Source of the DNA: Lunularia cruciata
Taxonomy: Eukaryota; Streptophyta; Marchantiopsida; Lunulariales; Lunulariaceae
DNA length: 64,000 bases
Direction: 5' to 3'
Assembly: GCA_948567375.1 (NCBI GenBank)
Contig: OX419763.1
Span: forward strand, 1,178,001-1,242,000
The notes under the pieces were generated by a model, which saw only the letters and a list, made by a program, of their open reading frames with translations, was not told the DNA's origin and ran no database searches. Shown in pieces: positions 1 through 43,800 of the stretch. How positions within the stretch are numbered: the first letter of the stretch is position 1; each line of letters begins with the position of its first letter. Both the position numbers and the translations under genes were made by a program.

Positions 1-2635
1 TGATCATGCACCCTGAAATCTCCACGTCAACCTTGGGAGATCCCAAATCTTCTTGTTCAATACAATAAATAGCGGGCAGGTCTTTCTTTGACATCAACCT
101 CACCTTCTTGAGGGCCAAATTCAGCTGCTTCTTGTACAGCTTGTTGTCTTCCCATAATTGTTTCAATGTAACGTTGGCATTTGTGGCTGCCAAATCCGCT
201 ACAATATCGTATTGGGGTACTCCTCCCAATTTGACTGTCTTTGCCTTTGGCTTCAGGTTCAAAGTCTCTCCATGTTCCATTTTGACTTCGGGACGTTTCA
301 AAATGGTGATGGGATTGCTAGTGGCCTTAACCTAAGGTTCCTCGGGTTGGTCCACCTCGGCTTGGATCAGACCCTTTACTTCGGATCAGATGTCCGCCGG
401 AAAAACTGGAGACTTTGTCTTTGTCTCCTCTTCCAAACTCAGTTCCCGAGTTCTGAGTAGTGCTCCTTATGTTCTTTCTGCAAGGCTTTAGCTTTGGCTT
501 TTGAGAGGATCTTTTCCTCCTTGGCAGAAAGAATTGCCTTTGGGTGCAGTCTCCTTGCCTTTTTGGAAGACAAGGAAGTCGTACTCCATTCTTTGGGATC
601 ACGCTTCTTCTTACCAGTGCGTGTCTCAACCTTCAAAATTTCAAGGTCTGGCCATTCCCCTTTTGAGGCCGGACTCCCTTCCTGAGGTCTCTCCTCCTCA
701 ACCGTGATACAATTTACATTCATCTCCCCCTTTGTTTGAATTGCTGCATGCTTAGCGGGGGTCTGTACATATTTTACAGGCGGCTTCAGGTTTGGTGGGT
801 GAGGGCATTGATTGCCCGTATGGCCCGATCCTTTGCAATTTCCACATAGGAGAACATACCCGATTTGCCTTCTTGGCTCCGGACAGTTTGGAGACCAATG
901 TCCCATCAAGCCACAATTGTAACAGGCTCCGGGTGCAACATTCTAAGGTCAATTTTGGTTGCTCATCGGTGGTCTTTGTGGAGGAGCATTGGGGTTATAC
1001 TCCCTTGGTCCAAACCTTGGACCTTGATACAATGCGCTAGCCTGAGGTTGTACCTCTTGCGTTTGGTACATAGCCTCTTTGTCCTTGTCTTGGTTCCATC
1101 CTGGAACCCAGTCGATTTGCTGCACCAAGAATTACGAGTATTGCATTCCGTGTTTGCGTGGCCCGACTTGCGACATGCAGTGCACCATACGTTCAATCTG
1201 CCAAATGATGGGGCCTTCCTTCTGTCTTTAGCCCCAATCATCTGCATCTTAAAATCCAAAAACTCCTTGATGAGGACATCCAGCTTGGTATCCGCCTTAT
1301 GTACACGCTTTGCTAGAGGAGTCACTGGTTTCTTACTCCCACATCTTCTTACTCGTCTTGGCTTTGATTCTTTTTTGGATTCCGAAGAAGAGCTCAAAGA
1401 CGTGGAGGATTCCTTCAAAGAAGGGGATGTACTGCATGAAGCTCTCCGTCTGGGCTTCTTGCCTTTCTTCTCCCAATTTCTTTGGTTGCTGGCAGAGTGA
1501 GAGTGGGCCGCCTCATAACGAACAACATGTTTGAGTACTTTGTCAAGGGAAGTTACATTCCTCTCCCTTGCAAAGATTCGGATCTCTAGTGAAAGTCCTC
1601 CCAAGAACCAGGTAATGGCTTGGGCATCGGAGTAACCCACCACCCCCGATTGCTTGGGAACTTGGTTCAAGAGTGTCATGAACTGCTCAGAGTAGTCTCT
1701 CAACTTCTCCTTCTTGCCTTGGTCTAAATCGTTGAGTGCCACGAAGACACTTGTGTCGTAGTCAACCTCCCGGAATTGTTCCAGGAAGTTGTTTCTCAAG
1801 TCTGCCCAATCTGCCGGTACAAACCCCTTTTGGGTCACATGGGTGTACCAGCTCTGAGCTTTCTTTTGGAGCAGACTTGGGAAAATTTGTAGTCAATCCG
1901 CCGAGTCATGCTCATTGTTAGCAAAGGAGATGACTTTGAATTCTTTGATGAATTCATTGGGGTCTTTGTCTTGTGCTATCTCGTTATACTTTTGATAGGC
2001 GTGTTGGGTGACAGGCAATGAAGTTATTGTTTGATGCACTTGGATCGGCTGAGGTAGTGTTGAACTTGACGGAACTGGGGGATTTGCTGGAATTGACGCC
2101 GTGTTGTCGGCCCAAGGATTCCAATTTGTCAAATTCAAGGTAGGGTCTTCTTTGACAATTTTTGATATGAGGGTGTTGACTTCAGCCCGATTGGAAGATT
2201 CAGGATCAACACCTTTGATGTGTTCTTCAAAATTCCTTCGGGTCAACCAAGGAATCATTCATAGAAGATGTTGACACTCTTCTTCCGTAAGTGTCCGTGC
2301 TGTCTTTTCTCAAACAAAGTTTGTTAAGGACGCGACTTCCTTTACAGCTCTAGGGGAAGTTGGTGTATTGGGCCGTAATGCATATGTTTGGCCACTCGAG
2401 TCTTTTTTCTTCTTGGACGAAGAGGGGGATACGAAGTAGCCTTGCCATCCGCCTTCTCACGTTTCTTATGGTCAAGTTCTCGCAGTGCTTCTTGCACTTT
2501 GTGAAGGAGTTGAAAGTCCAACGCCTCTCGTTTGGTTTTGTCAAAAGTGGATGGGACTTTCAAACATTTGTCTTCTTCATGCTGCAATGCTCATCTTTGA
2601 GCTCTCTCTTCCTATTGTTCTCTCAATGCAGACAT
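1..2635 (-). pseudogene. gag: gag (nucleocapsid/capsid polyprotein) of element A, degraded, reaching the protease boundary
   Basis: Gag forms the retrotransposon particle and packages its RNA. An ATG at 2635 starts a 97-codon frame (MSALREQ..., one stop inside); the main Gag frame continues in the -1 phase. The capsid-like part (about 2258-1240) has a typical retrotransposon-gag stretch around YDTSVFVALNDLDQGKKEKL and GYSDAQAITWFLGGLS. A Ser/Arg/Lys-rich region follows, then three zinc knuckles of the form CX2CX4HX4C at 1143-1184, 883-924 and 805-846. The pro-leader to position 1 ends just before the protease motif seen in element C. Damage: frame changes near 2400 and between knuckles 1 and 2, and stops around 2257 and 1890. 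Confidence 0.85.
2402..2408 (-). other. Possible -1 frameshift heptamer A_AAA_AAG in the gag 5' region
   Basis: The minus strand reads AAAAAAG with the last codon AAG in the phase of the ATG at 2635. A -1 slip here leaves the 97-codon frame and enters the phase that leads to the main Gag frame, open until a stop near 2300. Element C has the same phase relation and the same TAA ending the first frame, but its A-run is not in the correct phase. A shared old indel explains it equally well. Confidence 0.25.
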
Positions 2636-2698: not shown

Positions 2699-2716
2699 TC
2701 CCCGGCAGCGGTGCCA
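2699..2716 (-). other. Primer-binding site of element A
   Basis: The minus strand reads TGGCACCGCTGCCGGGGA, seven bases after the LTR end. It differs by two bases from TGGCGCCGTTGCCGGGGA, a PBS known from plant Tat/Athila-type elements. It shows which side of the LTR is internal, and so that this is the 5' LTR. Confidence 0.8.
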
Positions 2717-3394
2717 AAAATCATGTGACAACCTGGCAAATATCACTTTTGCGGTAATCAGGTAAGTAAAGTTCATTCCTGCACAGATACTAATCAGAAT
2801 TGGTCAAATACGAAGTCAAATAGTAACAATGGCAGTTCTTCTTGGTTGCGTCTTTAATCTCTCAGGTAAAAACTACACCCAGAAGAGAGTAACAAGCATT
2901 GATTCTCAGTCTAATCACAAATTAGCACTCCTTAATCACAACTCCATCAAATCTTGCCAAACAATCTTGATTGTGATGATTCAGGCTCTCTTGAAAATGG
3001 CACTTCACTGCAAAACAACTTCGCCTCAGAATTGTGTTCCACCCCTCCACTGAAGGCACAACTTCCTCGATCGAAATTGCTTCACACCAACTTTGCACTG
3101 CACTCACAAATGCAAAATACTACCAACACTACAATTCCTCTCAGATCTGTCAAGGCATTGCTTTGATTGCACTTCACTCAGGATCAAACACACAGAATGA
3201 AGATCAAGGCTGTGGAATCCAACATCAAACAAGCACACTAACTTGCACTTCAAATTTCTCCACACACTCACAAACACAAACACAAATTTGATACTCAAAA
3301 TCAAGCTCAAGCAACGAGCACTACTTCACAGCACTTTGCTTTATCTATTCTCAGAATTATGAGCACTGAACAACATCTGAGTGCAAATGCCACT

Positions 3395-3403
3395 CTTAAA
3401 TAG
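3395..3403 (-). promoter_or_regulatory. P2 TATA-like box CTATTTAAG of LTR A
   Basis: CTATTTAA(A)G recurs 664-679 bp before the LTR 3' end in A (here), C (12347-12356), K (37776-37784), J (48053) and W (63152-63160), followed by a conserved tract with GATAAAGCAAAGTG. Constant place and survival in the short LTR type suggest the promoter for genomic RNA. No transcript start is seen directly. Confidence 0.5.
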
Positions 3404-3520
3404 TGAAGCAATCGACAATTATCTTCCTAATGCACCTTTTCCTAATGCCTCTACAAACCTACAGATCCAAAATGACAATGCACTCCTTCATATCTGCCTA
3501 TACAAATCTCAAATTGGTTA

Positions 3521-6073
3521 CTAATCCGATCCGATGTCTACTTCTTCCTCGGCTTTTAAACCCGATCCCAAAGTAACTTGACATCCTACTATTTTGTCCT
3601 CGGGTTTCATATCTCCTTCATCTTCTACCAGATCCAACAATTCTCTTTCGTATTTGGCATTTCACCAATGGGTAATCTATCTAACTCCTTATCTGCCGAC
3701 CCACTCTTCTCTATTGTCTCTACTGGTAACTCCAAAGACATCTGCACTCCTACTTCATCTACTTCAGGTTTGGCTCTAACGTCTTTCTGAAGTTTATCTA
3801 TCTCCAATTTCACTAGATCTAATCTAATCGCGATATTGTCTTCAACTTCCAATATCTTCCTATCTACACGAGTCCTAAGACTAATTAACCACGCATTCAT
3901 ATCTGTATCTTTCGCCTATCTCCTCCTCGTCTCTTGCACCAACAACTTCAACTCGTGCAGCCTCATCTCTTTAATCCGAATACTGGCCTCTATGCTTAAC
4001 ATCGCATTCATTTTGATGATGATCTCCTTCAAGGGCTCCAATTGCATCTTCCTTTCCCGTTCCCGATCTGCAAGCCAATCTTCTCTGTACATTGCCAATT
4101 CCGCCTCAAACTCGGCTTTCACGGTTTCTTTCTCCTTCTCCTTCTGCTCAATCTTCTCCTCTTGATTACGAAGTAACTCTTGTAATCTCTCTTCTTCTCG
4201 ATATCTTCCTGTCAACTCCCGCTGCCATAGTTGCTTCTTCTCTTCTACACTCTCCATCACTCTATTGAGCTCTTGTTCCTTCTCTGCTCCCCTCACCATA
4301 GCATGGATTATTTCTAGTCTGGAATCAGCAAACTACTGCTTCAAGATCTCATATTCTGCTACTTGTCTTTCCCTTGCTATGTCACTCTTCTTCACAAGTT
4401 CTTCTCAATACCTCGCTTCTCTCTTCAAGTCCTCAATCACTTGATTCCGTACTACTGCCTCCACTCATAGTACTTCCCTTTCCTCTTTGCCTCGGGTTAT
4501 ACTCTTCTTCAACAACTAGTTCCCTTCTTCTAATCTTGCCAATACCTGCAACATAGTCTTCACCTCCGGACATGTTGACTGCATCTCCTTCTTCTTGTGC
4601 TCCAACTTCACCAACAATGGACACACAATCTCCCGTAGGTACTCCACCCATGACTTGCAACTACTTCCACTTGCGTAGCAATCTCCTTCCTTACTTCTTC
4701 TTCACCCGATACTCGCCTCCTTCACTGCAGTCTTCATATCGTAATAGATGCCTCACTTCCCAAGCTAGCATTTGCTTCTTCCCTCGCCTTACTCGGACCT
4801 GCCTCACACTTTGCCTTGCATCTTGAACGAACACCCCTCTGGATCGTTAACTTCTTCTCCTTGGGCTTGGGTATCTCATCCTCCAACTTCTCTATATGGT
4901 CTTCTTCGAGCTCCACCCAAACTTCTTCTTCTTCTTCAGCAGTAGCAGCAGGTACTGACATCATCTCTCCCCCTTCATCACTATTGCTACTAGTATCTCT
5001 ACTTTGCAGCGTGAGCTCTGGTTCTTCCTCACATTCCGAGTCTTTGGACTTGCACTCGGCTTCGCCTTCTGAGTCTTTGCCTGACGACGTGACCACCACT
5101 ATGCCTTTCCTCAGGTTTCCTCTCTTGACTCTCCAAGGTCTTGTTTTATCTTTGGCTTCTCCTTGCCAACTCCGCTTCTTCGACTTTGGAGTACTCACTT
5201 CTATCTCCACGCTCTTGCCTGTCCTTACATCGTACTCATCCATGCTTTGGATTTGAAGAATGTGCTGTTGCTCCTCCTGTCGACTTCTCTTCTCAAGTCG
5301 GGATGGAAGTGAGACATTTGGTTGCGCTCCACCGAATTGAGCAAATTCAACCCGAGGTAGAAATGTGTTGCAAATGGCAGGATGTAGTGTGGAGGCAACT
5401 TATCCCACAAATTCCACACCATCTGTATTGTCCTCCCATGGAAGCACCTCGCCCAATTAATAGGTTCTCCTGCAAACATCTTATGGAAGAACACCGCTTG
5501 GTGTTTCATCACATAAGTCATTCTCTCCGGCTTCAGGATTGCCATGAGAGCACTCACGATCCCTCTCTTCACTGGATCCTTCTAACTCTCAACCTTATAC
5601 CCATTCTTTGTTCTATTTGAAGAGAAAGCATCCCTCACTTCTTGGGTCTCTTCTGCTACTTCTCCCTTCCCCAAGAATGTGGCACCCTAGTCCGCACCTG
5701 CCTCTCTCCCAAGCACTAATCTCCAATCAGACTCTGTCCAGCAAGCCGGATTTCCTCTCTTCCTCTCTTCCTCGGGGCCATCAAGACACTTACTCTTGAT
5801 TATCTCCATCATGAAACCTTGAAACTCACATTCCAGTTCCACGCCAAGAAAGTGATCCGAAGTCGGCTCAAGACTTTGATTCTTGCGATCACATCTAACC
5901 TCCAAATTGCATGATTTCTCACTGCAAATTTGGAGTTCTTCTTTCCTCCTCCCATCTCTGGGTTTCACTCTCTCGAATTCTCCTCTACACACTAGCGCGT
6001 CTTCAACTCTACTTCCCTTCCCATGATCACCTACAGGACGACTTCTCAACGGCGAAGGAAAATTGCTTGACAT
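3521..6073 (-). pseudogene. LTR-ORF relic in LTR A: N-terminal domain, acidic linker, coiled coil (about 850 codons)
   Basis: Function and family are not recognised. From the ATG at 6073 (MSSNFPSPLRSRP) come a globular domain with the block GNPACWTESDWRLVLGREAG, then VSALMAILKPERMTYVMKHQ and HFYLGLNLLN. Next are a basic patch (PKSKKRSWQG near 5180), a strongly acidic Ser/Glu linker (about 5090-4900), a Lys/Glu-rich coiled coil (about 4300-3920, with RELTGRYREEERLQELLRNQ), a conserved segment starting RVDRKILEVEDN, and a C-terminal module ending VDIGSD and a stop at 3521. Frameshifts near 5690, 5580, 4730 and 3910 break it. Start and stop agree with copies C, E, K, P and W. Confidence 0.75.
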
Positions 6074-6090
6074 TGCTTTGTCGTTAGCCC

Positions 6091-6100
6091 GATTTTTATA
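6091..6100 (-). promoter_or_regulatory. P1 TATA box just upstream of LTR-ORF A
   Basis: The minus strand reads TATAAAAATC, its first base 27 bp before the ATG at 6073. The same spacing is seen in K (35132, ATG 35159), W (60431, ATG 60458), C (9643, ATG 9677) and N (about 40804, ATG 40834). A transcript from this box would start near the ATG and have almost no leader. Confidence 0.5.
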
Positions 6101-6486
6101 GAGTCGTGCTTTCTTTGTCTCTCTTCAATTTGAGTTTCTACCAAGAAATCACACTTCTTGTATGCGCTTGTCACTATCAATTGTACTTCATGCATATGGG
6201 CCACCGGTTTTGAACGGTCCCTTCTTGAATTTCTTTTCCCAACAAAAGGTTGTTACATTGTTTTCACCTCGGGTTGAGCTCCCCCCGATACGAAGACTCC
6301 TTACTTCGGGTTGTATGCTGACAGGGCATATCCGAGTACTTCACCTGATGACCCGAAGCCACTTTACTTTAGGTTTCATCCCGAAGACTCTTGTCTTTGC
6401 CATCTTCAGCCATACAGGCACAATCCGACTTCTCTATACACTTCTTCTTCTCTATTTTGAAAAAAACAAAAAATGTAGGCACCAAA

Positions 6487-9268: not shown

Positions 9269-12200
9269 TGTGGTGCCCACATTTTTTGTTTTTTTCTATT
9301 TTGTTAGTGTTTTGAGAAGAAGTAAGCAAGAAAGCCAAATTACAAAGAAAAGAATGGACGGGAGTGTCTTCAAGTAAACCTGAAGAAGTTGACATTGGGT
9401 CCGATGATGGAAGTACTGAGAAGGGAGTACAAACAAACAAGTCCAAAGACCATTGTCTTTGGATTGGGCAGCGATGGCTGGTACAAAGACCATCTAACAA
9501 CCTTTCTACGTGGCCAAAAAGTACACTTCAAGAAATGGCGGAGGCAGAAGAAGCATGTCTTGACAGTGATAGGACATCAACACACAAAAGAAGGGGGAGT
9601 TGATTTTGAAATAAATTGAAGAATGACTGCAATTCAAGGTGATATAAAATTGTGAGTGCACAGGGGAAAATTGAATATGTCAAGAAGATTTCTTGTTCCT
9701 CTGAGTAGTCATCCTGCAGTAATGCATGTCAAGAACCCAATTGAGAGTGAAATTTGCCAAAGTCCAGAAAGGGTTAGAGTGTCTTGTCCAAGAGAGGGAA
9801 TAGTCTTCCAGTGCCAAAGAACAAGAGAGCAGATCATGGCAAAGAAGGTCAAGAACGCCCTTGCAATAAGAAGTTTTGCAATTTGGAGGTTGGATGTCAT
9901 AGCCAAGATAGAGGTCTTGAATAGACTTCATCTTGATTTTTTAGCTTGGATATGGAATTTCAGTTTCCCAAGAGTCATAGTAGAGATAGCTGCCAATAAG
10001 TGTGAGGAAGGCCATGAAGTCAAGGAGAAGAGAGGAAATTCGGCTCAATGGACTGAGTCGGATTGGAGGTTAGTGTTGGGGAAGGAAGCAAGAGAACCGA
10101 TGGGGATAACCTTCTATTGGAAGTGTGATGTTGCAGAGGAGACTGCAAATATATGCAATTTGTTCTTTGCTCCGTGCACAAAAAAGGGGTACAAGGTAGA
10201 GTCCTATTGGGACCCGATTAAATGAAGCATTGTGGGGATGATAATGGCAATGTTCAAACCAAAACAAACAACTTACATGAACATGCAACATGCAGTCTTT
10301 TTCCACCAAATGTTTGTTGGAGTGAAGGTGAATTGTGCAAAGTGTTTCCACCAGCAAATGAGGCAGATGGTTGTCAATTGGAGGACAAATTTGCCTCCAC
10401 ATTATTTTTCACCGTTTGCAGCACATTTCTACTTTGGGTTAAATTTGTTGAGAGCGGAGGAGCGGCATTGCATAGTGTCCCATTTTCATCTTGATTTGAG
10501 ACAAGAAGCGGATGAAGAAGAACAACAATACATGGCACACTTGCAAGCCAATGATGATTGGTTCTTGAGGAATGAGACAACGGGAGATGGAAGAAGTTAT
10601 AAGCCTGAAGACAAAGAAGCAGAATAAACCCAAAGAAGTAGAGTTGTCTCCAATACAAAAGAAGACCCAAAGTCTCATTCTGCGGGGTAAGAAGGCAGTG
10701 AAAGATGAAACTTTGGATAAAGAGTCTGAAACGGAGACGTAGTCTTGAGGAGAAGACTCAGAAGAAGCGGAACTCACATTACAAAGTGAGGAATCTGGAA
10801 GTGAGAGTGAGGGTGAAGACAAAGTTCAACAATCGGCTTAAGCAAAAGTAGATGAAGATTTCCATGTGATGATTGACAGTATAAAGGTAAATGCTTATCC
10901 TTGTGTAGCCCTGGTCATGGAAGAGAAGGGGCCTGAGTGTAAAAAGAATAACCCTGCAGGCCCAAGTTCAGCAGGTAAGGAAGAAGGAAGCTTTGATGTA
11001 GTAGCGCTGAAAGTACGAAGATCAAGACTTTGGAAGAAGGAGCCAGCAGAAGAGGCAAAGTACAAAGATGGGGCCGAAGACAAAGAGCACTTTGGAGGAA
11101 TACAGTATTTATCACATGTTGTAACTCCACTGCTGGGGCTGTTGAAAAAGCACCTGAAGGTCATCCCACAAGATCATGTGAAGGTGAGGAATGAGTTGCA
11201 GGTGGTGAAGTATCTGCTGGCTGAAGTGAATGGATTGCAGGAGCGCGTAACCTAAAGAGATAAGGAAGTTGAAGAGCTTCAGGTGGATACAGTCTTGAGG
11301 AAGAAGACTTTCTAGAAGTTGCAAGAGAGTTTTGAGTCAAGAGGGACAGAAATGCAGCGGCAAGCCAAAGAGTTGAAGGAGCAGGTGATGTTGCTTACCA
11401 ATATGAAAGAGGAGGTAAGAGAAGTGCACATCAAGAGAATTCATGTGAAAGCGATGGCAGCAATGATGGAGCAGGAGTTAGAAAGCTTGAAGAAGACCAC
11501 AGCCAGGAAAGATCAAGCATGGTAGAGAGAGTTGGCGGTCAGACAAGAAGAACAAGAAAGACTGAGAGAGTTGGTGCAAAGTGTTGAGTTACAGAGTTCT
11601 CAGTATATAGAGGAGAAAAAGATGCTTGCTGCTGAGTACAAAGATGAGTCGAAGATGTACCAGGAGGAGTTGAAAGCAAAACGATCTAGTGGGTATGCAT
11701 TGGATGTCAATAGGAGCGTTGTGAGAAATTTGAGAGCTATGCTATGCACTGAGGCTAAAGGAAGATTGGAAGAAGGAAGATTACACAAATTAAAGTTGCA
11801 TGTGTAGGAAACTTGGAAGAGGAGAGCTAAAGATGTTGATATGAACACTCTACTAATCCAATTAAGGGAGTGAGTAGATAGAAGATGTTAGAAGTAGGAG
11901 ACAATGTGAGTCTCAGATTAGATTTAGTGAATTCAAAGTAAGAGAGAATTAGGAGTAGTGTGACGGAGGAGAAAAAGTCAGATGTTGTAGAAGTAGGAAT
12001 TCAAGTGTCTTTGGACTTGTCATTGGAGACTTTAGAGAAGAGTGGGTTGCAAGATAAAGAGATAAAAAGATTACCCATGACCTCATTTGTAGTTCCTAGA
12101 GAAGAGGTAGTAGAAATAGTGAAGGAATTAGTGGAGTCAGATATACCCAAAGAAGGAGAAGTGATAGGAAGATCATTGGGTTTGGAAGCAAATGAAGTGA

Positions 12201-13017
12201 TTGACATCGGATTGGAGTAGAAATAGATTGAGATTTGAAGAGGCAGATATGAAGAGGTGCATTATCATTTTGGATCTGCAGGTTTGTAGAGTTGTTGTAG
12301 AATCATATTTTTGTTAGTTAATTGTTGATTGCTCTACTATTTAAAGGAGGCATTCATAGTAAAATGTTATTCAATATTCATATTTCTGAAGATAGATAAA
12401 GCAAAGTGCTAATTTTAGTGCTTGTATCTTGAGCTTAATTCCAAGTATCAACTTTGTGTGTGTGTTTGTGAGTGTGTGGAGAATGTGGAAGTGCAAGTCA
12501 GTGTGCTTGTTAGATGTTGGATCCTACAACCTTGAACTTCATTTTGTGTGTTTGATCTTGAGTGAAGTGCAATCAAAGCAATACCTTGACAGATCTGAGA
12601 GGAATTGTAGTGTTGGTAGTATTCTACATTTGTGAGTGCAGCATTGAGTTGATGTGAAGCAATTTTGATCAAGGAAGTTGTGCCTTTAGTGGAGAGGTGG
12701 AACAAAATTTTGAGGCAAAGTAGTTTTGTAGTGAAGTGCCATTTTTGGGAGAATCTGAATCATCACAATCAAGATTTGTTTGGACAGAATTTGCTATGTT
12801 GTGATTATGGGTATGTGTATTCATGACAAGTTGTCAAGATTGTGAGCTTGTTACTCTCCTCTCGGTGTAGTTTCTACCTGAGAGATTAAAGAAGAACCCA
12901 AGAAAAACTACATTGTTATTGTTTGTCTTGTATTTGACCAATTCTGAATTGTATCTCTGTGGGAACAAACTTTACTTACCTGATTATTGCAAAAGTGATA
13001 TTTGTTGGATTGTCACA
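9269..13017 (+). repeat. LTR C, long type (3749 bp), 5' LTR of element C
   Basis: It begins TGTGGTGCCCACATTTTTTG at 9269 and ends TTGGATTGTCACA at 13017, followed directly by a PBS, so it is a complete 5' LTR. U3 is 9269-9640; the TATA-like GATATAAAAT is at 9641-9650; the LTR-ORF relic spans 9677-12220; the P2 box CTATTTAAAG is at 12347-12356; the last 660 bp are the conserved non-coding 3' part found in all copies. Confidence 0.92.
9677..12220 (+). pseudogene. LTR-ORF relic in LTR C (about 848 codons)
   Basis: Unrecognised protein. The ATG at 9677 gives MSRRFLVPLSSHP; the first 183 codons to 10225 are open. They include WRLDVIAKIEVLNRLHL, FLAWIWNFSF and NSAQWTESDWRLVLGKEA. A further open run, about 10232-10627, has FHQMFVGVKVNCAKCFHQQM and HFYFGLNLLRAEERH. 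The acidic linker is at about 10690-10860. Lys/Glu-rich coiled coil fills 11100-11810 (QVVKYLLAEVNGLQERVT; LMEQELESLKKT-type heptads). The C-terminal module at 11975-12220 has VGIQVSLDLSLETLEKSG and ends DIGLE. Several stops read TAA or TAG where copy P has CAA or CAG, consistent with C-to-T decay. Confidence 0.78.
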
Positions 13018-13105: not shown

Positions 13106-14960
13106 ATGTCTGCATTGAAAGAACAACGGGAAGAGAGAGTTTGAAGATGAATGTTGCATTATGAAGAAGAAGAACACCTGAAGATCCAATCCACTTTTGA
13201 TAAAGCCGACTAGGAGGCGTTTGACTTGCAACTTCTTTGCAAAGTTCAAGAAGCTTTGCAAGAACTCGAACAAAAGAAACACAAAGGTAGGTGGCAAGGC
13301 TACTTCTCGTCCCCCTCTTCCAAAAAAAGAAAGACTCGAGCGGGCAGACATATTCATTATGACTCAGTACACCGACTTGCCCTAAAGTTGTAAAGGAAGT
13401 CAAATTTGTCAAGAAGTTTGTTTGCAAAAAGATAGCACAAACACTTATGGAAGAAGAGTGTCAACATCTTCTATGCACAATTCCTCAATTATCTCGAATG
13501 AATTTTGAAGAACACTTGGGAGGTGTTGAACCTCTTGCTTCTATTTGGGTTGAAGTCGACACAAACAGAGAAGAAGAAATTGTCAAAGAAGTCCCCACTT
13601 TGAACTTGACTGGTTAGAATCATTGGGCTGCCAACACAGCATCCATACCAAGCAGCTCCTCGGGCCTATCAAGTTCAAATTTACCACAACCAATCCCACC
13701 AAATCAAACGATGACTTTGTTGCTTGTCACCCAACACGCCTATCAGAAGTATAAGGGGACCAAACAAGACAAAGATCTGATGAATTTATCTCCTTTTCCA
13801 ACAAGGAACATGACTCTGCAGATTGTTTGCAAATTTTTCCAAGTCTGCTCCGAAAGAAAGCTCGGAGCTAGTACACCCATGTAACCTAGAAGGGGTTCAC
13901 ACCAACCGATTGGGCAGACTTGTGAAATGGCTTCTTGGAACAATTCCAAGAAGTTGATTATGATACAAGTGTCTTTGCGGCACTCAATGATTTGGACCAA
14001 GGGAAGAAGGAAAGGTTGAGAGATTACTCCCAGCGGTTTATGGCCCTATTGAACCGAGTTCTGAAACAATGAGGTGTGGTGGGTTTCCCTGATGCCCAAG
14101 TCATTACCTGGTTTCTTGGCGGACTTTCACCGGAGATTTGTATCTTTGCCAAGGAGAGGAATGTAACTTCCTTGGACAAAGTCCTCAAACATGTTGCCCA
14201 ATATGAGGCGGCTCACTCTCACTCATCCAGCAACCAAAGAAATCAGGGGAAGAAAGGCAAGAAGCCTAGAAGGAGAGCTTCTCGCAGCACATCCCCTTCT
14301 TTGGAGGAATCCTCCACATCTTTGAGTTCTTCAGAATCCAAAGAAGAATCAAATCCGAGACGAATACAAAGACACAGAAAAAAGAAACCAGTAACACCAC
14401 CAGCAAAGAATATACCTAAGGCGGATCAGAAGCTAGAGACTCTTATTAAAGACTTTGCGGATTTCAAGATCCAGATGACTGGAGCCACGGACCAAAGAAA
14501 GCCTCTATCATTTGGCCAACCAAATGTCTGGTGCACTCCATGTGGTAAATCTGGCCATGCAAATATGGAGTGTTTGACCTGCACTGCATTTCCAATGCAA
14601 CAAATTGATTGAGTTCCCAGTTGGGACCACAGTGAGGAAGATGAGGTTGTGTACCAAACCCAAAGGTGCAGCCTCAGGCAAGCACATCGTATCAAGGTCC
14701 GGGGTATGGACCAAGGGAGTATAACAATAATGCTCTCCTATGAAGACCACCAATGGGCGGCCAAAATAGGCCTCAAAATGTTGCACCAGGTGCTTGCTAT
14801 AATTGTGGCTCGATGGGACATTGGTCTCCATATTCTCTGGGGCCAAAATGGAAAATTGGGTATGTTCTACTTTGTGAAAATTGTAAAGGATCAAGGCATA
14901 CGGGAAACCAGTGCCCGCAACCACCATTGAAGAATTTGGATCTCTTGAACTGGATGCGGA
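13106..14960 (+). pseudogene. gag: gag of element C, degraded
   Basis: The start MSALKEQREE aligns with gag of element A and ends at the same relative TAA (13391-13393). The main Gag frame then runs in -1 phase (PKVVKEVKFVKKF). Capsid-like sequence includes LLLVTQHAYQKYKG at about 13730 and FPDAQVITWFLGGLSPE at about 14085, then a basic/Ser-rich linker. Knuckle 1 is at 14532-14573 (CTPCGKSGHANMEC), knuckle 2 at 14795-14836 (its last Cys is now Ser) and knuckle 3 at 14873-14914. Multiple stops and frameshifts. The precise Gag-protease boundary cannot be set; 14960 is the point just before the protease domain. Confidence 0.85.
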
Positions 14961-20947: not shown

Positions 20948-23900
20948 TATGACAACCAAGCAAATATCACTTTTGCAGTAATCAGGTAAGTAAAGTTTGT
21001 TCCCACCGAGATACTAGTCAGAATTGGTCAAATACGAAGTGAAGTAACAAATGTAGTTCTTCATGGTTGCATCTTTAGTCTCTTAGGTAAAAATCCCACC
21101 CCAAAGAGAGTAGCAAGCATCACAATCTTGACAACTTGTCACAAATACACACACCCATAATCACAACACAACAAATTTTTTCCAAACAAATCTTGATTGT
21201 GATGATTCAGATTCTCCTGAAAACGGCACAAAATGACTTTGCCTCAGAATTGTGTTCCACCCCTCCACTAAAGGTACAACTTCCTTGATCAAAATTGCTT
21301 CACATCAACACTACGCTGCACTCACAAATGCAAAATACTACAAACATTACAATTCCTCTTAGATCTGTCAAGGCATTGCTTTGATTGCACTTTACTCAAG
21401 ATCAAATACACAAAATGAAGATCAAGGCTGCGGAATCCAACATCCAACATCCAACACTCACACTGACTTGCACTTCAAATTTCTCCAAACACTCACAAAC
21501 ACACACACACACACAACATTGATACTCAGAATCAAGCTCAAGTGACGAGCACTAAAATCAGCATTTTGCATTTGTGAGTGCAGCGCAATGTTGATGTGAA
21601 GCAATTCAAATTCTGAGATATTTATCTATTCTCAGAATTTGAATACTGAACAACATAGGACTGTGAATGCCTCCTTTTAATAGGCAAAGCTCTTCAGCAG
21701 TTATCTAACAACTATACCGTTCTACAACAACTTTTCCCAACAGCAGATCCGAAATGACAATGCAACTCTTCATATCTGCCTCTTCATATCTCAAATTTGT
21801 TTCTACTCCGATCCAATGTCTACTTCTTCCTCGGATTCCAATCCCGAAATGTTCTATCCTCGGGTTTCACAACTACTAAAAAATTCCTCTACCAATTCTA
21901 ACTTTTCTCCTTCCTGATCTCAAATTCCCATCATAAGTACTTCTCCTAATTCTCTATCTCCTGACCCACTCTTCTCTAATATCTCCAATGGTAATTCCAA
22001 AGATATTTGTACTCTTATGTCATCTACTTTGGGCTTTGCTCTTACATCCTTCCAAAGTTTATCTATCTCCAACTTCACTTAATCTAATCTGATTGTGATA
22101 TTATCTTCTACTTCTAATATCTTCCTATCCACACAAGCTCTGAGACTAATAAGCAAGGCATTCAAGTCCTTATCCTTTGCATTCCTCCTCCTCATCTTCT
22201 GCACTAACAACTTCAACTCGTGCAGTCTTGTTTCTTCAATCCGGACGTTGGCTTCTATACTCAACATTGCGTTCATCTTTGTAACTATCTATCTCCTTCA
22301 ATGGCTCAAGTCTCATTCTCCTCTCCCATTCTTGATCTGCAAGCCAATCTTCTCTATACATTGCCAGTTTTGCCTTAAACTCGGCTTTCATTGTCTCCTT
22401 CTCCTTCTCCTTCTAAATTATCTTCTCCTCCAGACTACAAAGTAACTCTCTCAGTCTTTCTTCCTCTCAAGATCTCACTATCAACTCTCTTTGCTAGAGT
22501 TGCTTCTTCTCCTCTACATTCTCCATCATCCTATTGAGTTCTTGATCTTTCTCTACTACTCTTGCCATAGCATGAATAATTTCTAATTGCAAATCAGCAA
22601 ACTGCTATTTCAAGATCTCATTCACCGCTATTTGTCTTTCTCTTGCTATGACATTCTGCTCTATTATTCTCTCTACTCCCCACTTCCTTCTTTAAGTTTT
22701 CAATTACCTGATTCTATACTACTGCATCTACTCATAGTACTTCCCTCTCCTCCTCACCTTGGATTATACTCTTCTTCAACTCCAAGTTCTCTTCCTCTAA
22801 TCTTGCTAACACCTACAACACAATCTTCACCTCTGGGCACTTTGACTGCATCTCTTTCTTCTTCTTCTCCAACTTTACTAACAATGGGCACACCACCTCC
22901 TGTATATACTCTACTCCCTCACTTGAGTTTACCTTGCCTTGTGGAATTTTCTCCTTCTTCGCCTCTTCTTCACTTGATACTTGTCTTCTCAGCCATAATC
23001 GCCTTATGGGAATGGATTCCTCACTCCCCGAACTTCCACTCTCCACTTCTTTTCTTACTTTACTCGGTCCTGCTTCATACTTTGCCTTCCTTCTGGAACG
23101 GACTCCTCTCTGAATAGTCACGCTCTTCTCCTCCTACCTTGGCACTTCATCTTCAGGTCTCGGGTTACCTTCTTCCTCTATCTCCATCTTTACTTCTTCT
23201 TCCTTGGGTACTGACTGCATCTCCATTCCATCTTCACTTTTGCTGCTTGTTTCACCACTCTGCAACATGAATTCAGGCTCTTCCTCCTCTAAGTCTTTTG
23301 ACTTGCACTTGGCCTCCCCTTATGACTCTTTGCCCGACGACATGATTACCACAAAGTCTTTCCTCGGGTTCACCTTTCTTGTCTTCCGAGGTCTCACTGC
23401 TGCTACTTCGTCTTCTTCTTCTTGTCAAATCCTCTTCTTCGTCTTCAGCGTGTTCACCTTCAACTACATGCTTCGCCCTATCTGTGAGTTATACTCATCA
23501 TTGCTCCTTATTTGCAAGATGTGTTGCTGTTCCTCCGCATCGGCATCTCATCTCAAATCAAGGTGGAAGTGCAACACCATCTTGTGTCTCTTTGCCGCAT
23601 TCAGCAAGTTCAATCCTAAGTAGAAGTGGGCTGCAAATGGTACAATGTAGTGTGGAGGCAACCTATCTTGCAATTTCCACACCATCTGCCTCGTCCTCTG
23701 ATGAAAGCACTTCGCCCAGTTGATTGACTCTCTTGCAAACATCTTGTGGAAGAACACCACTTGATGTTTCATTACATGAGTCATTCACTCTGGCTTGAAG
23801 ATAGCCATCATTGCACTTATGATGCCTCTCCTCACAGGATCTTTATAACTCTCCATTTTGTAGCCATTCTTTGTGCACTTTGAAGAGAAGGCGTTTCTCA

Positions 23901-24792
23901 CTTCTTGGGTTTCTTCAGCTACTTCTCCCTTCCACAAGAATGTCACTCTATGCTCCTCGCCCGCCTCTCTTTTGAGTACTAATCTCCAATCCAACTCTGT
24001 CCATCAAGCCGGATTTCCTCTCTTCCCTTCTTCCTTAGGTCCATCGAGACACTTACTCTCGATGATCTCCATCATGAAACCTGGAAAACTAATGTTCCAG
24101 TTCCATGCTAGGAATGTGATCCAAAGCCTGCTCAGACTTTGATTCTTGCAATCACATCTAATCTTCAAATTGCATGATTTCTCATTGTGAATTCAGAGTT
24201 CTTCTTCCCACCTCCCATCTTACTCTCCTCCACTTTGGGTTGGTGGTTACTCTTCCGACTGATTCTTGGATTTCTCCTGACTTCCTCTCAACACACCAAT
24301 GCATCTCTCACTACACTTTCCTTTCCACGATTTCCCTTAGGACAACTTCTTAATGGCGATGGAAAATTACTCGTCATCCCTTTGTCTCTATCCCGAGTCT
24401 TATAGTGGCGTGCCTTCTCCGCTTTTTTTCACTTCGAGTTATTACCAAGAAATCACACTTCCTGCATGCTCTTGTCATTGTCAATTTTCCCCAGCTTGTA
24501 TGACCGCTGTTTTTGTGTGTAGTACCTTCTTGAATGTCTAACCCCAAAGGAAAGTTGTTACACTGTCCTTGCCTCGGGTTGAGCACCTCCGAGACAAAGT
24601 TTCCTTACTTCAGGTTGCATGTTGATAGGGCAATTCCGAGTACTTTGCCTTTTGGCACGAAGTCACTTTACCTCGAGTTACAACCCAAGGACACCTTTCT
24701 TTGCCTTCTAATGTCATCCAGGCACAATATAACTTATTTTGTACACTTCTTCTTCAAAAATAAGAAAAAAAAACAAAAATGTGGGTACCACA
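20948..24792 (-). repeat. Solo LTR E, long type (3845 bp), flanked by ACTCT target-site duplication
   Basis: The plus strand reads ACTCT (20943-20947), then TATGACAACC at the LTR 3' end, and GGTACCACA (ending 24792) followed by ACTCT (24793-24797). No PBS follows its 3' end and no polypurine tract precedes its 5' end, so it is a solo LTR left by recombination between the two LTRs of one element. It sits in U3 of LTR D. It proves that the long unit with the LTR-ORF is a true LTR. Confidence 0.95.
21803..24377 (-). pseudogene. LTR-ORF relic in solo LTR E (about 858 codons)
   Basis: Unrecognised protein. The ATG at 24377 (MTSNFPSPLRS) is followed by a worn region, then an N-terminal domain with MDWRLVLKREAGEEHRVTFL, KNGYKVESYKDPVRRGIISA and HFYLGLNLLNAAKRHK (about 24000-23548). 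Next come an acidic linker and VEYIQEVVCPLLVKLEKKKK (about 22900). The Lys/Glu coiled coil (about 22800-22200) leads to the segment ending RACVDRKILEVEDNITIRLD (22079) and a stop at 21803 after the DIGSE-type end. Several stops and frameshifts. Confidence 0.75.
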
Positions 24793-34748: not shown

Positions 34749-37700
34749 TGTGGTACCCACATTTTTTATTTTTTTTTCGAAAATTGGAAGAAGAAGTGTA
34801 TAGAGAAGTCAAATTGCACCTGTATGGCCAAAGAAGGCAAAGAAAAGTGTCCTCGGGATGAAACCCAAGGTGTGGCTTTGGGTCATAAGGCAAGGTACTC
34901 GGAATTGCCCTGTCAGCATACAACCCAAAGTAAGGAGTCTTTGTATTGGGGGTGCTCAACCCAAGGTAAGGACAGTGTAACAACTTTCCTTTGGGGCAAG
35001 AGATTCAAGAAGGGACCATTCAAAAATGGTGGTCATACGCGTGAAGGACACTTGACAATGACAAGAGCATGCAGGAGGTGTGATTTCTTGGTAGAACCTT
35101 GAATTGAAGAAAGATGAAGAAGGCACGACTCTATAAAAATTGGGCTAAAGACAAAGCAATGACAAGCAATTTTCCATTGCCGTTAAGAAGTCGTCCTACA
35201 GAAGATCATGAGAAGGGAAGTAGAGTCAAAGATGCGCTAGTGTGTAGAGAAGAATTTGAGAGAGCTAATCCGGGAATCAATAGGAAGAATAGTCCCCAAC
35301 CCAGAGTGGAAGAGAGAAAGATGGGAGGAAGGAAGAAGAATTCTGAATTTTCCATGAGAAATCATGCAATTCGGAGGTTAGATGTGATTGCAAGAATTGA
35401 AGTCTTGAGTAGGCTTCGGATCACATTCTTGGCATGGAATTGGAATGTTAGCTTTCCAGGGTTCATGACTGAGATCATCAAGAGTAGGTGTCTCAATGGC
35501 CCCAAGGAAGAAGGGAAGAGAGGTAATCCGGCTCGTTGGACAAAGTCGGATTGGAGGTTAGTGCCATGCTTCGTGCATTGTGTCTCTTCCGAGTGGAAGA
35601 GAAGCAGGCATGGAGCATGGTGCCATGTTCTTGGGGAAAGATGAAGTAGTAGAAGAAACCCAGGAGGTGAGAGTTGCTTTCTCTTTGAAGCGCACGAAGA
35701 ATGGTTACAAAGTAGAGAGCTACAAGGATCTTGTAAAGAGAAGGATTGTGAGTGCTCTAATGGCAATCTTGAAGCCGGAGAGAATGACTTATGTGATGAA
35801 GCACCAAGCGGTGTTCTTCCAGAAGATTTTTGCAGGAGAGCCAATTAACTGGGTGAAGTGTTTTCATGGGAGAACAAGACAGATGGTATGGAATTTGTGG
35901 AATAAGTCGCCTCCACATTACATTGTGCTATTTGCAGCTCATTTCTATCTTGGGCCGAACTTGCTCAATGTGGTAGAGAGCAATAGGACGGTGTCGCATT
36001 TCCATCCTGACTTAAGAAGAGATGTTGATGCGGAGGAGCAGCAATACATTCTTTAGATCAGGAGTAGTGATGAGTACTACGCACAGACGAGGAAGAGTGT
36101 GCAGTTGGAAGTGAGTACTCCAAAGTCAAAGAAGAGGAGTTGACAAGAAGAAGGAGAAGAAGTCAAGAAAGTAAGACCTCAGAAGGCTAGAAGAGTAAAC
36201 CCAAGGAAAGGAATGGTGGTAATCATGTTGTCGGAGGAAGAATCGGAAGGCAAAGCCGAGTGCAAGTCCAAAGACTCGGAAAGAGATGAAGAACCTGAGT
36301 TCACACTATAGAGTGGAGACAAAGTGCCAGAGCAAGAGGAGAAGAGAGTTACCCTTCAAAGAGGAGTTTGTTCCAAGCGAAAGGTGAAGTGTGGAGTGGG
36401 GCCGAGTAAGGTAAGAGAAGAGGAGGATGAAAGTTCAGGGAGCAAAGCATCCATTCTTATAAGGCGAGTGTTGAGTGATGAAGAGGTGAAGAAGGAGATC
36501 ACTCCGCAAGTTGAGGTAACTCCAAGTGAAGGAGTGGAGTACCTGCGAGAGGTTGTGTGCCCATTATTAGTAAAGTTGGAGCACAAGAAGAAGGAGATGC
36601 AGTCAAAGTGTCCAAAGGTGAAGACTGTGTTGCAGGTGTTAGCATGATTAGAAGAAGAGAACTCAGAGTTGAAGAAGAGTATAATCCTAGGTGAGGAGGA
36701 AAGGGAAGTACTGCGAGTAGATGCAGTAGTACAGAATCAAGTGATTGAGAACTTGAGGAGAGAAGCAAGGAATCGGGAGGAACTAATAGAGCAAAATGTC
36801 ATAGCAAGGGAAAGACAAATAGCTGAGTATGAAATCTTGAAGCAGTAGTTAAATGATTCTAGACTAGAAATTATCCATGCTATGGCAAGAGTAGCAGAGA
36901 AAGAACAAGAGCTTGATAGGGTGATGGAGAGTGTAGAGGAGAAGAAGTAGCTATGGCAATGAGAGTTGAGGTATAGGGAGGAAGAAAGGTTGAGAGAGTT
37001 ATTTCGCAATCAGGAGGAAAAGATTGTGTAGAAAGAGAAGGAGAAGGAAGTTGTAAAGCCAAGTTCAAAGCAGAATTTGCAACGTACAAAGAAGATTGGC
37101 TTGCAAGTCGAGAACGGGAGAGGAAAACAAGATTGGAGCCATTAAAGGAGATCATGATCAAGATAAATGCAATGCTAAGTACAGAGACTTGTGTGCGCAT
37201 TGAAGAGACAAGATTGCACGAGTTGAAGTTGTTGGTGCAGGAGATGAGGAGGAGAAATGCAAAGAACAAAGACTTGAATGCCTTATTGATTAGTCTGAGA
37301 ACTTGTGTAGATAGAAAGATATTGGAGGTAAAAGACAATATCACAATCAGATTAGACTTAGTCAAATTAGAGATAGATAAACTTTGGAAGGATGTCAAAG
37401 CAAAACCCGAAGTAGACGAAGTAGGAGTGTAGATGTGTAGATATCTTTGGAGTTACCATTGGAGAGATTGGAGAAGAGTGGATTGTGAGATAAGAGTTAG
37501 AAGATTACCCACTAGTGGAATTACAAATCAAGAAAGAGAATTGTTAGATTTGGTAGAGGAATTAGGAGTTTTGAAACCCGAGGATAGAGTAGTATTGAGT
37601 GAAGTTACTCTAGGATCGGGTTTGAAAGCCAAGGAAGAAGTACACATCGGATCAGATTAGTAACAGTTTTGAGATTTGAAGAGGCAGATATGAAGAGGTG

Positions 37701-38440
37701 CATTGTTAGTTTGGATTTGCATGTTAGAAGAGTTGTTAGGAAACGGTATAGTTGTTAGAATTGTTCTTTGCTTCACTATTTAAGAGTGGCATTCACAGTA
37801 ATATGTTGTTTAGTGCTCAAAATTTTTGAGAATAGATAAAGCAAAGTGTTGTGAAGCAATGCTCGTTGCTTGAGCTTGATTCTGAGTATCAACTTTGTGA
37901 TTGTGTTTGTGAGTGTGTGGAGAAATTTGAAGTGCAAGTCAATGTCCTTGTTGGATGTTGGATTCCGCAACCTTGTGTGTATGATCCTGAGTGAAGTGCA
38001 ATTGGAGCAATGCCTTGACAGATCTTAGAGGAATTGTAGTGTTGGTAGTATTCAACATTTGTGAGTGTAGTGTAGTGTTGATGTGAAGCAATTTTGATTG
38101 AGGAAGTTGTGCCTTCAGTGGAGGGGTGGAACACAATTACAAGGCAAAGTCATTTTGTAGTGAAGTGCCATTTTTGGGAGAGCCTGAATCATCACAATCA
38201 AGATTGTTTGGAAAGAATTGAAGGTGTTGAGATTAAGGAGTGTGAATACCTGGCAAGCTTGTGAATCAATGCTTGTTACTCTCTTTTGGGGGTGGTTTCT
38301 ACTTGAGAGATTAAAGATGCAACCAAGCAAAACTACATTGTTACTTTGCTTTGTATTTGGACATTTTTGACCAGTATCTCTATGGGTATGAACTTTACTT
38401 ACCCGATTACCTCAAAAGTGATATTTTCCGAGTTGTCACA
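34749..38440 (+). repeat. Solo LTR K, long type (3692 bp), inserted in pol of element L
   Basis: It starts TGTGGTACCCACA at 34749 and ends CGAGTTGTCACA at 38440. Flanks are ATAGT (34744-34748) and AAAGT (38441-38445), a target-site duplication with one mismatch; the two pol pieces outside it join into one linker sequence. No PBS or polypurine tract adjoins. It carries P1 (CTATAAAAAT, 35131-35140), the LTR-ORF relic and P2 (37776-37784). Confidence 0.92.
35159..37660 (+). pseudogene. LTR-ORF relic in solo LTR K (about 834 codons)
   Basis: Unrecognised protein, rather well kept. The frame from the ATG at 35159 (MTSNFPLPLRSRPTEDHEKG) is open for about 160 codons: IRRLDVIARIEVLSRLRITF, FLAWNWNVSFPGF, GNPARWTKSDWRLV. 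A changed segment of about 30 bp near 35575 shifts the frame; then NGYKVESYKDLVKRRIVSAL and MKHQAVFFQKIFAGEPINWV appear, with HFYLGPNLLN near 35945. The acidic linker is at about 36230-36330, VEYLREVVCPLLVKLEHKKK at 36536, and coiled coil at 36650-37100. LHELKLLVQEMRRRNAKNKD precedes the conserved segment, and the frame ends with a stop at 37658-37660. Confidence 0.78.
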
Positions 38441-40869: not shown

Positions 40870-43800
40870 TGTGGTGCCCACATTTTATTTTTTTTTCTGT
40901 TTTGTTAGCATTTGGAGAAGAAGTAAGCAAGAAAGCTGAATTATGAAGAAAAGAATGGATTGGAGTGTCTTCAAAAGAAATCCAAAGAAGTCAACTTTGG
41001 ATCAGAAAATGGAAGTACTCCAAAGGGGAGTACAAAGAAACAAGTCCAAAGACCATTGTCTTTGGATTGGGCAGCAAAGGCCAATACAAAGACGGTCTAA
41101 CAACCTTTCTACGTGGCAAGAAAGTACACTTCAAGAAACGGCAAAGGTAGAAGAAGCATGCCTTGATAGTGAGAGGACATCAACATGCAAAAGAAGGGGG
41201 AGTCAATTTTGAAATTAACTAAAGAATGACTGCAATTTGGGGTAATATAAAATTGCAATTGTGTAGGGGAAAATTGAATATGTCAAGTAGATTTCCTATT
41301 CCTCTAAGTAGTCTTCCTGCCATAATGCATGTCAAGAAGCCAATTGAGAGTGAAATTTTCCAAAAGCCAGAAGGCATTAGAGTGTCTCGTCCAGGAGAGG
41401 GAATAGTCTTCCAATGCTAAGGAACAAGAGAGCATATCATGGAGAAGAAGGTCAAGAACACCCTTGCAATAAGAAATTTTGCAATTTGGAGGTTGAATGT
41501 TGTAGCAAGGATTGAGGTCTTGAATAGACTTCATACTACTTTTTTAGCGTGGAACTAGAATTTCAATTTCCTAGGAGTCATGGCAGAGATAGCTGCCAGT
41601 AATTGTGAGGAAGGTCCTGAAGTCGAGGGGAAGAGAGCTCGATGGACTGAGTTGGATTGGAGGTAAGTGTTGGGGAAGGAAGCAGGAGAACCAACGGGGA
41701 TCACCTTCTATTGGAAGTGTGATGCTGCAGAGGAGACTGCATACATACGCAATTCATTCTTCACTCTGTGTACAACGAATGGTTACAAGGTGGATCCTAT
41801 TGGGACCCCATTAAACAAAGCATCATGGGGAGGATAACAGCAATGTTCAAACCAGAATGAATGACTTAAGTGAACATGCAGCAAGCGGTCTTTTTTACCA
41901 GATGTTTGCAGGAGTGAAGGTGAACTGGGCAAAGTGTTTCCACTAGCAAACAAGGCAAATGGTTGTCAATTGGAGGAAAAATTTTCCTTGATATTATTTT
42001 GCACCATTTGCAGCACATTTCTACTTTGGGTTGAATTTGCTGACAGCAGAGGAGAGGTGTCGCATGGTGTCACATTTTCATCCTAATTTGAGATAGGAAG
42101 TGGATGAAGAAGAACAGCAGTACATGGCACACCTGTGAGCCAGTGATGATCATTTCTTGAGAACGGGACAACAAGAGATGGAAGAAGTCATAAGCCCAAA
42201 GATGAGGAAGTAGAATAAACCCGAAGAAGCAAAGTTGCCTCCAGCACAAAGCAAGACCCAAAGACTTGTTCTATGGGGTAAGGAGGCGGTGAAAGAAGAA
42301 CCTTTGCAAACCGAGTCTGAAGGGGAGATAGAGTCTAGAGGAGAAGACTTAGAAGAAGCGGAACTCATGTTACAAAGTGGGGAATCCGGAAGTGAGAGTG
42401 AGGGTGAAGACAAAGTTCAGCAATTGGCTAAAGCAGAAGAAGATGAAGCTTTTCATGCAATGATTGATAGTATAAAGGGAAATGCTAATCCTTATGGAGC
42501 CTTGGTTATGGAAGAGAAGGAAGCTGAGCAAAAGAAGGAGTACCTTGCGGGCCCAAGTTCAATAGGTAAGGAAGAAGGAAGCTTGGATGTAGTATCGTTG
42601 AAGGTACAAAGATCGAGACTTTAGAAGAAGAAGTCGGCAGAAGAGGCAAAGTACAAAGATAGGGCCAAAGATGGAGCCAAAGATGAAGAAAACTTTGGAG
42701 GAATACAGTATTTATTGCATGTTGTAACTCCATTGTTGGAGCTGTTGAAAGAACACCAGAAGGTAACCCTACAAGATTGTATGAAGGTGGCAAATGAGTT
42801 GCAGGTGGTGAAGTATCTGCTGGCTGAAGTGAGGAGATTGCAGGAGCGAGTAACTCAAAGAGACAAGGAAGTTGAAAAGCTTCGGGTAGATACAGTCTTG
42901 AGGAAGAAGACTTTCAAGAAGTTGCAAGAGAGTTTTGAGTCAAGAGGGAGAGAAATGCAGCCACAAGCCAAAGAGTTGAAGGAGCAGATGATGTTGCTGA
43001 CCAAGATGAAAGAGGAGGTCAGTGAAGTGCACATCGAGAGTATTCATGTGAAAGCGATGGCAACAATGATAGCGCAGGTGTTAGAAAACTTGAGGAAGAG
43101 TGCAGTCGGGAAGGATCAGGCATGGTAAAGAGAGTTGGCGGTCAGACATCAAGAAGAAGAAAGGCTGAGAGAGTTGGTAAAAGTGCTGAGTTACAGAGTT
43201 CTCAATATGCGGAGGAGAAGAAGGTGCTCGCTGCTGAGTACAAAGATGAGTTGAAGATGTGCCGGGAGGAGTTGAAGGCAAAGTGATCTCAATGGTATGC
43301 ATCAGAGTCAGTAGGAGACATTGTGGGAAAGCTGACAGGAATGTTATGCACTAAGGCTGAAGGAAGATTGGAAGAAGCAAGACTACACAAGTTAAAGTTG
43401 CTTGTGTAGAAAACTCAAAAGAGGAGAGCCAAAGATTTTGATATGAACACTCTACTAATCCAATTGAGGGAGCAAGTACATAGAAAGATGTTAGAAGTAG
43501 GAGACAATGTCAGTCTCAGATTACATTTAGTAAATTTAGAGTTGGAGAGAATTAGGAGTGGTGTGACAAAGGAGAAAAAGTCCAATGTTGTAGAAGTAGG
43601 AATTTAGGTGTCTTCAGACTTGTCCTTCAAGACATTAGAGAAGAGTGGGTTGCAAGATAAAGAAGTAGATGGATTACCCATGACCTCAATTGTAGTTCCT
43701 AATGAAGAACTAGTAGAAATAGTGAAGGAATTAGTAGAATCAGATATACCCGAAGAAGAAGATGTAATAGGAAGATCATTGGGTTTGAAAGCCGATGGGG

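Follow-up and report, generated by a model that had tools for sequence, protein, structure and literature searches.

We describe a gene lying inside the long terminal repeats (LTRs) of a Ty3/gypsy retrotransposon family of the liverwort Lunularia cruciata, as exemplified by LTR E at 20948..24792 of a 64-kb window (the whole stretch of DNA that was analysed; 40.7% G+C). The window is filled with decayed, nested copies of this one family, and comparing it with itself brings out, beside many fragments, six full-length LTRs (A, C, E, K, P and W; ~3.7-3.85 kb). Four of the six are solo LTRs (E, P, K and W) and two are 5' LTRs (A and C). The family has the features by which Ty3/gypsy elements are recognised: LTR ends of the form TG...CA with 5-bp target duplications, a primer-binding site after the 5' LTR and a polypurine tract before the 3' LTR, gag (PF03732), and pol in the order reverse transcriptase, RNase H and integrase, with the integrase adjoining the 3' LTR. 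In its primer site and integrase the family may resemble the Athila/Tat-type lineage, of which it would be a possible member. The LTRs and the copies of the gene within them are as follows.

20948..24792, minus strand: LTR E, a full-length solo LTR with the perfect 5-bp target duplication ACTCT, from the self-comparison
2724..6484, minus strand: LTR A, a 5' LTR with a primer-binding site and gag downstream on the same strand
9269..13017, plus strand: LTR C, a 5' LTR belonging to a second subfamily, with a primer-binding site (13025-13042) and then gag after it
34749..38440, plus strand: LTR K, a solo LTR with the duplication ATAGT/AAAGT, inside the internal region of another element
40870..44619, plus strand: LTR P, a solo LTR with the duplication GTTAT on both sides, of the subfamily of C
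60048..63827, plus strand: LTR W, a solo LTR with the duplication GTGAG/ATGAG
21803..24377, minus strand: broken copy of the LTR gene in E, with several stops and frameshifts
3521..6073, minus strand: broken copy in A, with stops or frameshifts
9677..12220, plus strand: broken copy in C, with stops or frameshifts
35159..37660, plus strand: broken copy in K, with stops or frameshifts
41280..43811, plus strand: broken copy in P, given as the span of the protein-level matches
60458..63031, plus strand: broken copy in W, with stops or frameshifts
50364..51395, plus strand: N-terminal part of a broken copy of a third subfamily (S), from protein-level matches

The frames begin with ATG and have 851 (A), 848 (C), 858 (E), 834 (K) and 858 (W) codons. 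This bears out the preliminary description of this DNA, where the frame was said to start at matching places in these five LTRs, with P as a sixth, so that each holds the same frame of ~850 codons, and where E and P were said to be bounded by perfect 5-bp duplications; those of K and W, with one mismatch each, were read by eye from the flanks. As all six full-length copies are disrupted by stops and frameshifts and, among the frames with a start, only a gag fragment reaches 250 amino acids, the window holds fossils of the LTR gene rather than a working gene.

Copies elsewhere were sought in the source genome (565.8 Mb), where a query from the N-terminal part yielded 23,409 candidates at first look and one from subfamily C 22,562. 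Of these, 117 (118 match rows) and 126, respectively, were scored; the candidate counts are loose and do not equal copy numbers. In 41 of the 118 N-terminal match rows the matched part is without a stop, one of these having just 46 residues. Twenty loci of 7 kb (L039-L058), picked for long frames, make up the set that we call young. The ATG codons at positions 1 and 47 are kept in every one of them. Two (L039 and L040), each a solo LTR between perfect 5-bp duplications, can be read through all 857 codons without a break, and these natural copies stand in for the preliminary description's own counter-case of a consensus LTR lacking an open frame of such size. Twelve of the 20 are solo LTRs (ten with perfect 5-bp duplications, two with one mismatch), two have a primer-binding site after the LTR, four have a polypurine tract before it and two are unclear; L055, for which the script gave the verdict 'unclear', was grouped manually with the 3' LTRs for its polypurine tract and adjoining integrase, the integrase ending 11 nt upstream of the LTR. 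For one element both ends were obtained, with LTRs of 3780 and 3778 bp, the duplication AGTGC on both sides, and 97 mismatches in 3777 aligned bases, 81 of them transitions. The frame is present in both of its LTRs, each copy with premature stops, as expected from the earlier claim that the frame lies within the LTR and is thus carried twice per element. The LTR gene is therefore present in 5', 3' and solo LTRs. We also note the ratio of solo LTRs to LTRs with an internal region among the 20 loci, 12 to 6 with two unclear, which the choice of long frames may bias, and that the LTRs of L043 and L049 are ~237 bp shorter than the others, through one deletion common to both, two independent ones or a 3' end that is interrupted.

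The evidence for selection comes firstly from the window. The DNA alignment of its six LTRs was built without regard to frame and is thus fairer than the ratio of nonsynonymous to synonymous divergence (dN/dS) anchored on proteins. Within the frame's first segment, the differences between C and A fall at 103:91:170 by codon position (first:second:third, as in all such triplets below), and the differences of C from A, E, K and W there are mostly at third positions (p 8e-9 to 6e-6), whereas the 5' and 3' flanks of the LTR in the same alignment have no codon-position bias. Between the subfamilies of the window the third-position excess is strong N-terminally and moderate in the coiled coil. Of the three segments compared between C and P, the first and second have no excess (p 0.27 and 0.36) and the third has p 0.03; a lack of excess is to be expected of recent copies in decay. 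A chunk-wise measure of periodicity without a fixed frame gives a modest signal between subfamilies, with a mean chi-square of 2.55 in the frame versus 0.47 and 1.41 in the flanks, where 2 is expected. The first dN/dS count, on protein-level matches, took in 13 of 14 N-terminal and 16 of 16 C-terminal listed window copies; for diverged pairs dN/dS is mostly 0.1-0.5, many pairs being without a value as dS is saturated, while some short or close pairs have values up to and above 1. Being anchored on protein matches, this table tilts towards conservation.

The second line of evidence comes from the young copies. Among all 20 of them the singletons are distributed as 160:155:151 and the variants shared by at least two copies as 160:133:340, with the difference having p 1e-11. 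Classed against the commonest codon, the shared variants comprise 360 synonymous, 285 nonsynonymous and 9 stop changes and the singletons 180, 407 and 29, respectively. The ratio of nonsynonymous to synonymous changes per possible site (N/S) is then 0.235 for the shared variants, standing for the internal branches on which the preliminary description had proposed that dN/dS be judged, versus 0.67 for the singletons; it is not near 1. With CpG sites removed the pattern remains (shared 92:57:211, singletons 130:126:123). In the 17 full-length young LTRs (the 20 minus L043, L049 and L054), codons 47-857 have shared variants at 129:106:296 (p 4e-27) and singletons at 101:89:118, while the shared variants are flat in the 5' flank (19:30:23, p 0.27) and in the part after the stop (37:30:34, p 0.69). 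In 30 copies of the S type, codons 47-300 give 107:98:158 for shared variants and 85:72:49 for singletons, and in codons 55-150 the positions at which the young and S types are fixed for different bases are 13:9:25 (p 0.012). Since the shared variants are biased to third positions, the singletons are nearly flat and the flanks are unbiased, the LTR gene is under purifying selection while the element is active, with little or none after insertion.

The protein has 857 residues from the first ATG (ATG1) and ~811 from Met47. Residues ~61-300 form a conserved domain, residues 301-330 have a net charge of +9, which we take to be a nuclear-signal-like patch, and residues 331-390 have a net charge of -16; heptad windows are scattered between 510 and about 775, and the C end is acidic. 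This charge and heptad profile fits the sketch given before of an N-terminal domain, a basic patch, an acidic linker, a coiled coil and a C-terminal module. Where the frame is naturally open in two subfamilies, they share 52% amino-acid identity over 332 residues.

No convincing relative was found by the searches, consistent with the earlier failure to recognise a family. Against ~5.8 billion proteins, the alignment A1 gave 2966 candidates with none at E <= 0.01, and the open 857-residue protein gave no homolog among the best 7996 candidates, which were scored. By contrast, of the 1173 candidates obtained with the family's integrase as a positive control, 758 matched at E <= 1e-20, implying that the protein database does hold bryophyte retroelement proteins; among the 120 integrase matches listed of the 758, 13 are named by organism, i.e., 12 liverworts (Marchantia, Riccia, Calypogeia) and one moss, which points to a liverwort as the probable host. 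Pfam gave nothing above cut-off for the open proteins or the pieces of the LTR gene. Over 71 segments, 14 Pfam families appear at E <= 0.1, each in one or two members, the best being Exo_endo_phos_3 (0.0036, one of 71), which was taken as chance. PF20167 (Transposase_32) falls short of its Pfam cut-off, the best match having E 0.068 and 13.5 bits versus a cut-off of 45, in one of 71 segments. This match, the one weak hint of a relative, of the conserved domain at L010:1663-2133 to profile positions 103-147 of this putative plant transposon protein family, could be a remote relative or chance. There was no match in NCBIfam, none in the IMG/VR scan with P0001, and nothing at E <= 1 for the open protein in PDB, where a profile search gave two matches (E 0.4 and 0.95) that were taken as chance. 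A duplicate of gag was rejected, the hhalign probability with the gag fragment being 0.1.

The protein bears directly on the alternative that an ordinary 3' accessory gene, in the position of env, was absorbed into the LTR by an upstream shift of the polypurine tract, with its product having a structural or virion job. An Env-like membrane-spanning segment was sought by the 19-residue hydropathy on a simple scale and was not found, the highest mean being 1.31, and the open proteins gave no Pfam family above cut-off. This alternative shares the location of the gene with the reading that we prefer, while origin and function are separate questions, and we consider it possible, though doubtful.

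We now turn to the position of the gene relative to the promoters. A TATA-like box, TATAAAAAT, lies 27 nt before ATG1 in all 20 young copies, and the C and S types have a TATA-like box at the corresponding position. In plant promoters the RNA starts at a distance from the TATA box that would fall about ATG1 here, so that Met47 would be a likely start. From the box to codon 46 the variants of the 17 young LTRs are at 10:14:11, with no bias, and codons 1-46 of the 30 S-type copies give 23:22:19. The constraint thus seems to begin at Met47, downstream of the conserved box, and translation most likely starts there, which would give a protein of ~811 residues. A second TATA-like box, TATTTAA, is present ~117 nt after the stop in L040, exact in 13 of the 20 young copies and in five of the six window LTRs, with E having a variant. 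Because this box follows the gene and the rest of the LTR resembles a conventional leader of repeat (R) and unique 5' (U5) regions before the primer-binding site, the gene would probably lie in the unique 3' region (U3) and be the last gene of the genomic RNA.

The boxes can also be read the other way round, with the one before ATG1 being the promoter of the genomic RNA and the gene lying in R or U5, where it would come first in a 5' leader of great length. The constant distance of TATAAAAAT in the young copies and the matching boxes of the C and S types would suit this arrangement, but gag would then come after a frame of ~811 codons on the same RNA, and a second TATA-like box lies after the frame, so that we think it unlikely.

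It may further be supposed that a host gene was captured into the LTR, or that solo LTR copies were recruited by the host. That no retroelement relative of the LTR gene was found would agree with this; however, no host homolog was found either (a distant-method genome search for a single-copy host homolog was not made), and the singletons, nearly flat by codon position, indicate that single insertions do not look maintained, which makes this supposition rather improbable. The idea that the frame is open by chance or as a relict, with no role in coding, which the broken state of all six full-length window copies and the lack of clear constraint on the first 46 codons would allow, is contradicted by the codon-position bias with its flank and singleton controls, by the copies open over 857 codons and by the 52% identity between two subfamilies naturally open there, and can practically be dismissed.

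The LTR gene also appears to move between lineages. Measured window by window, the net divergence of C and P from A, E, K and W is 0.11-0.47 over the 5' flank and the frame and drops to -0.02 to 0.09 once the stop is reached, with the break falling at the stop codon of the gene; and the divergence at third positions of gag between A and C is 0.31-0.38, versus 0.48-0.57 in three segments of the LTR gene. The 5' flank and the gene therefore look like a cassette exchangeable between lineages that share the rest, exchange of U3 being the simplest reading because the divergence ends at the stop and gag diverges less than the LTR gene. Alternatively, the 3' part of the LTR may be under strong constraint, but this leaves the lower divergence of gag unexplained. 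Note also that the final ~800 nt of the LTR (12221-13017 in C, and the matching ends of A, E, K, P and W) are nearly alike despite the deeply diverged genes.

Taken together, we propose that this Ty3/gypsy family has a selected accessory gene located in the U3 inside its LTR, with its own promoter, coding for a nuclear factor that acts in trans, and forming an exchangeable cassette, and we give this reading as a whole a probability of about 0.78. Its parts are not equally firm: the LTR location and the selection on the gene are well supported, the U3 placement, the promoter and the start codon are likely as judged from the sequence, and the nuclear accessory role of the protein is a reasoned guess. 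According to this proposal, a complete element would have two copies of the gene and a solo LTR would retain one, while the genomic RNA, driven by the second TATA-like box, would carry the gene once, at its 3' end, within the U3 of the 3' LTR. The gene would be expressed from its own promoter with the box before the first ATG, probably starting at Met47. The lysine/arginine-rich patch, the acidic tract, the coiled coil and the lack of a membrane segment suggest that the product would be a soluble oligomeric nuclear factor helping the element in trans, with the likeliest role being to counter silencing or to export or handle the RNA of the element. The gene with its 5' flank would be swapped between element lineages as a cassette.

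Several observations weigh against this proposal or parts of it. The 20 young copies, drawn from the 118 N-terminal matches, were selected for long frames and are a non-random sample. Towards the end of the frame in C (11885-12220, its last segment) there is little or no bias (p 0.07-0.64 versus A, E, K and W). In codons 151-300 the young and S types have fixed differences at 21:13:15 (p 0.35), although just 52 third-position sites passed the filter there versus 103 and 119 at the other positions. The singleton N/S of 0.67 is not 1, meaning that the singletons are not purely neutral or that the site counts are rough, and in codons 701-857 the singletons of the 20 copies are at 73:70:42, unlike the rest, perhaps through misaligned frameshifted copies. 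As to the start, ATG1 is present in all 20 young copies, the few residues after it recur in several subfamilies, and in codons 1-46 the fixed differences separating these two types, at 11:12:20 (p 0.18), lean towards coding. The exact TATTTAA is absent from the stretch searched in 7 of the 20 young copies. Lastly, promoter use, start codon and function are inferred from the DNA sequence.

If the proposal is carried further, the LTR would be a complete mobile gene, with a promoter, a regulatory protein of ~811 residues and 3' signals, where solo LTRs would supply an anti-silencing or RNA-handling factor in trans and lineages would swap the U3 cassette while sharing R-U5, gag and pol; we offer this extension tentatively and with considerable doubt. 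If it is true, the swapping of U3 cassettes would resemble an arms race with host silencing. LTRs are usually treated as non-coding control regions, while the LTR of this plant family codes for a protein of over 800 residues that is under selection, with the gene duplicated in the complete element and remaining in solo LTRs. The family is thus a test case set by nature for the questions why an accessory gene should enter U3 and whether solo LTRs keep making a trans-acting factor, and it implies that annotation by LTR masking can conceal selected genes.

The remaining features of the window are the following.

2699..2716, minus strand: primer-binding site of element A, in the sequence following LTR A, presumably of tRNA-Asp type
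963..1892, minus strand: gag fragment of element A (PF03732, E 3e-13)
13833..14129, plus strand: gag domain of element C (PF03732, E 7e-9)
53600..55951, minus strand: decayed pol remnants in the order RVT_1, RNase H and integrase H2C2 (Pfam; reverse transcriptase match below cut-off)

At 34283-39923, solo LTR K interrupts the internal region of another member of the family that runs in the opposite direction, the window being a nest of such insertions. An Rfam scan of the window at gathering scores gave no matches. The available text of PMC9985172 gives the Lunularia cruciata genome as almost twice the size of those of studied relatives, mostly via Ty3/Gypsy bursts.

Finally, we compare the LTR gene with known systems. 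Genes located in LTRs are represented by sag of the mouse mammary tumour virus (MMTV) and by lentiviral nef, which overlaps U3; Sag is a short membrane protein of a vertebrate retrovirus. The liverwort family would be similar in having a protein gene in U3 at the 3' end of the genomic RNA. The comparison with the MMTV superantigen, drawn in the preliminary description, holds for the location and fails otherwise, as the protein here has ~811-857 residues and no membrane-like segment and belongs to a plant Ty3/gypsy element.

Among plant elements, the additional open reading frames (ORFs) of LTR-retrotransposons offer, in the portions available of a review (PMC7264820), an extra conserved sense gene downstream of pol, as is the case here. 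In those portions the ORFs are placed outside the LTR, with no wording such as 'in', 'within' or 'inside the LTR', while the gene here is inside the LTRs and not between pol and the 3' LTR. Among the titles and openings of abstracts listed by a literature search there was no plant element with an LTR-borne gene, though one may have been described elsewhere. Rice Retrosat2 (PMC3485330, in its available part) is similar in its long LTRs (>3.2 kb), its element of >12 kb and its orphan ORF0, which changes faster than gag-pol; by contrast, ORF0 precedes the gag-pol ORF, and the text does not describe it as being in the LTR. The ORF3 types of bdelloid rotifers are also modular extra genes, some of them with coiled coils and common to different retroelement types, whereas they are a third ORF besides gag and pol, with no LTR location given in the text available (PMC5408684). 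The likeness extends as well to CERV of Cer1 in C. elegans, an orphan accessory protein that a Ty3/gypsy element encodes downstream of pol, and according to the accessible part of PMC10309623, CERV illustrates that such an accessory protein can be required for the export of the genomic RNA.
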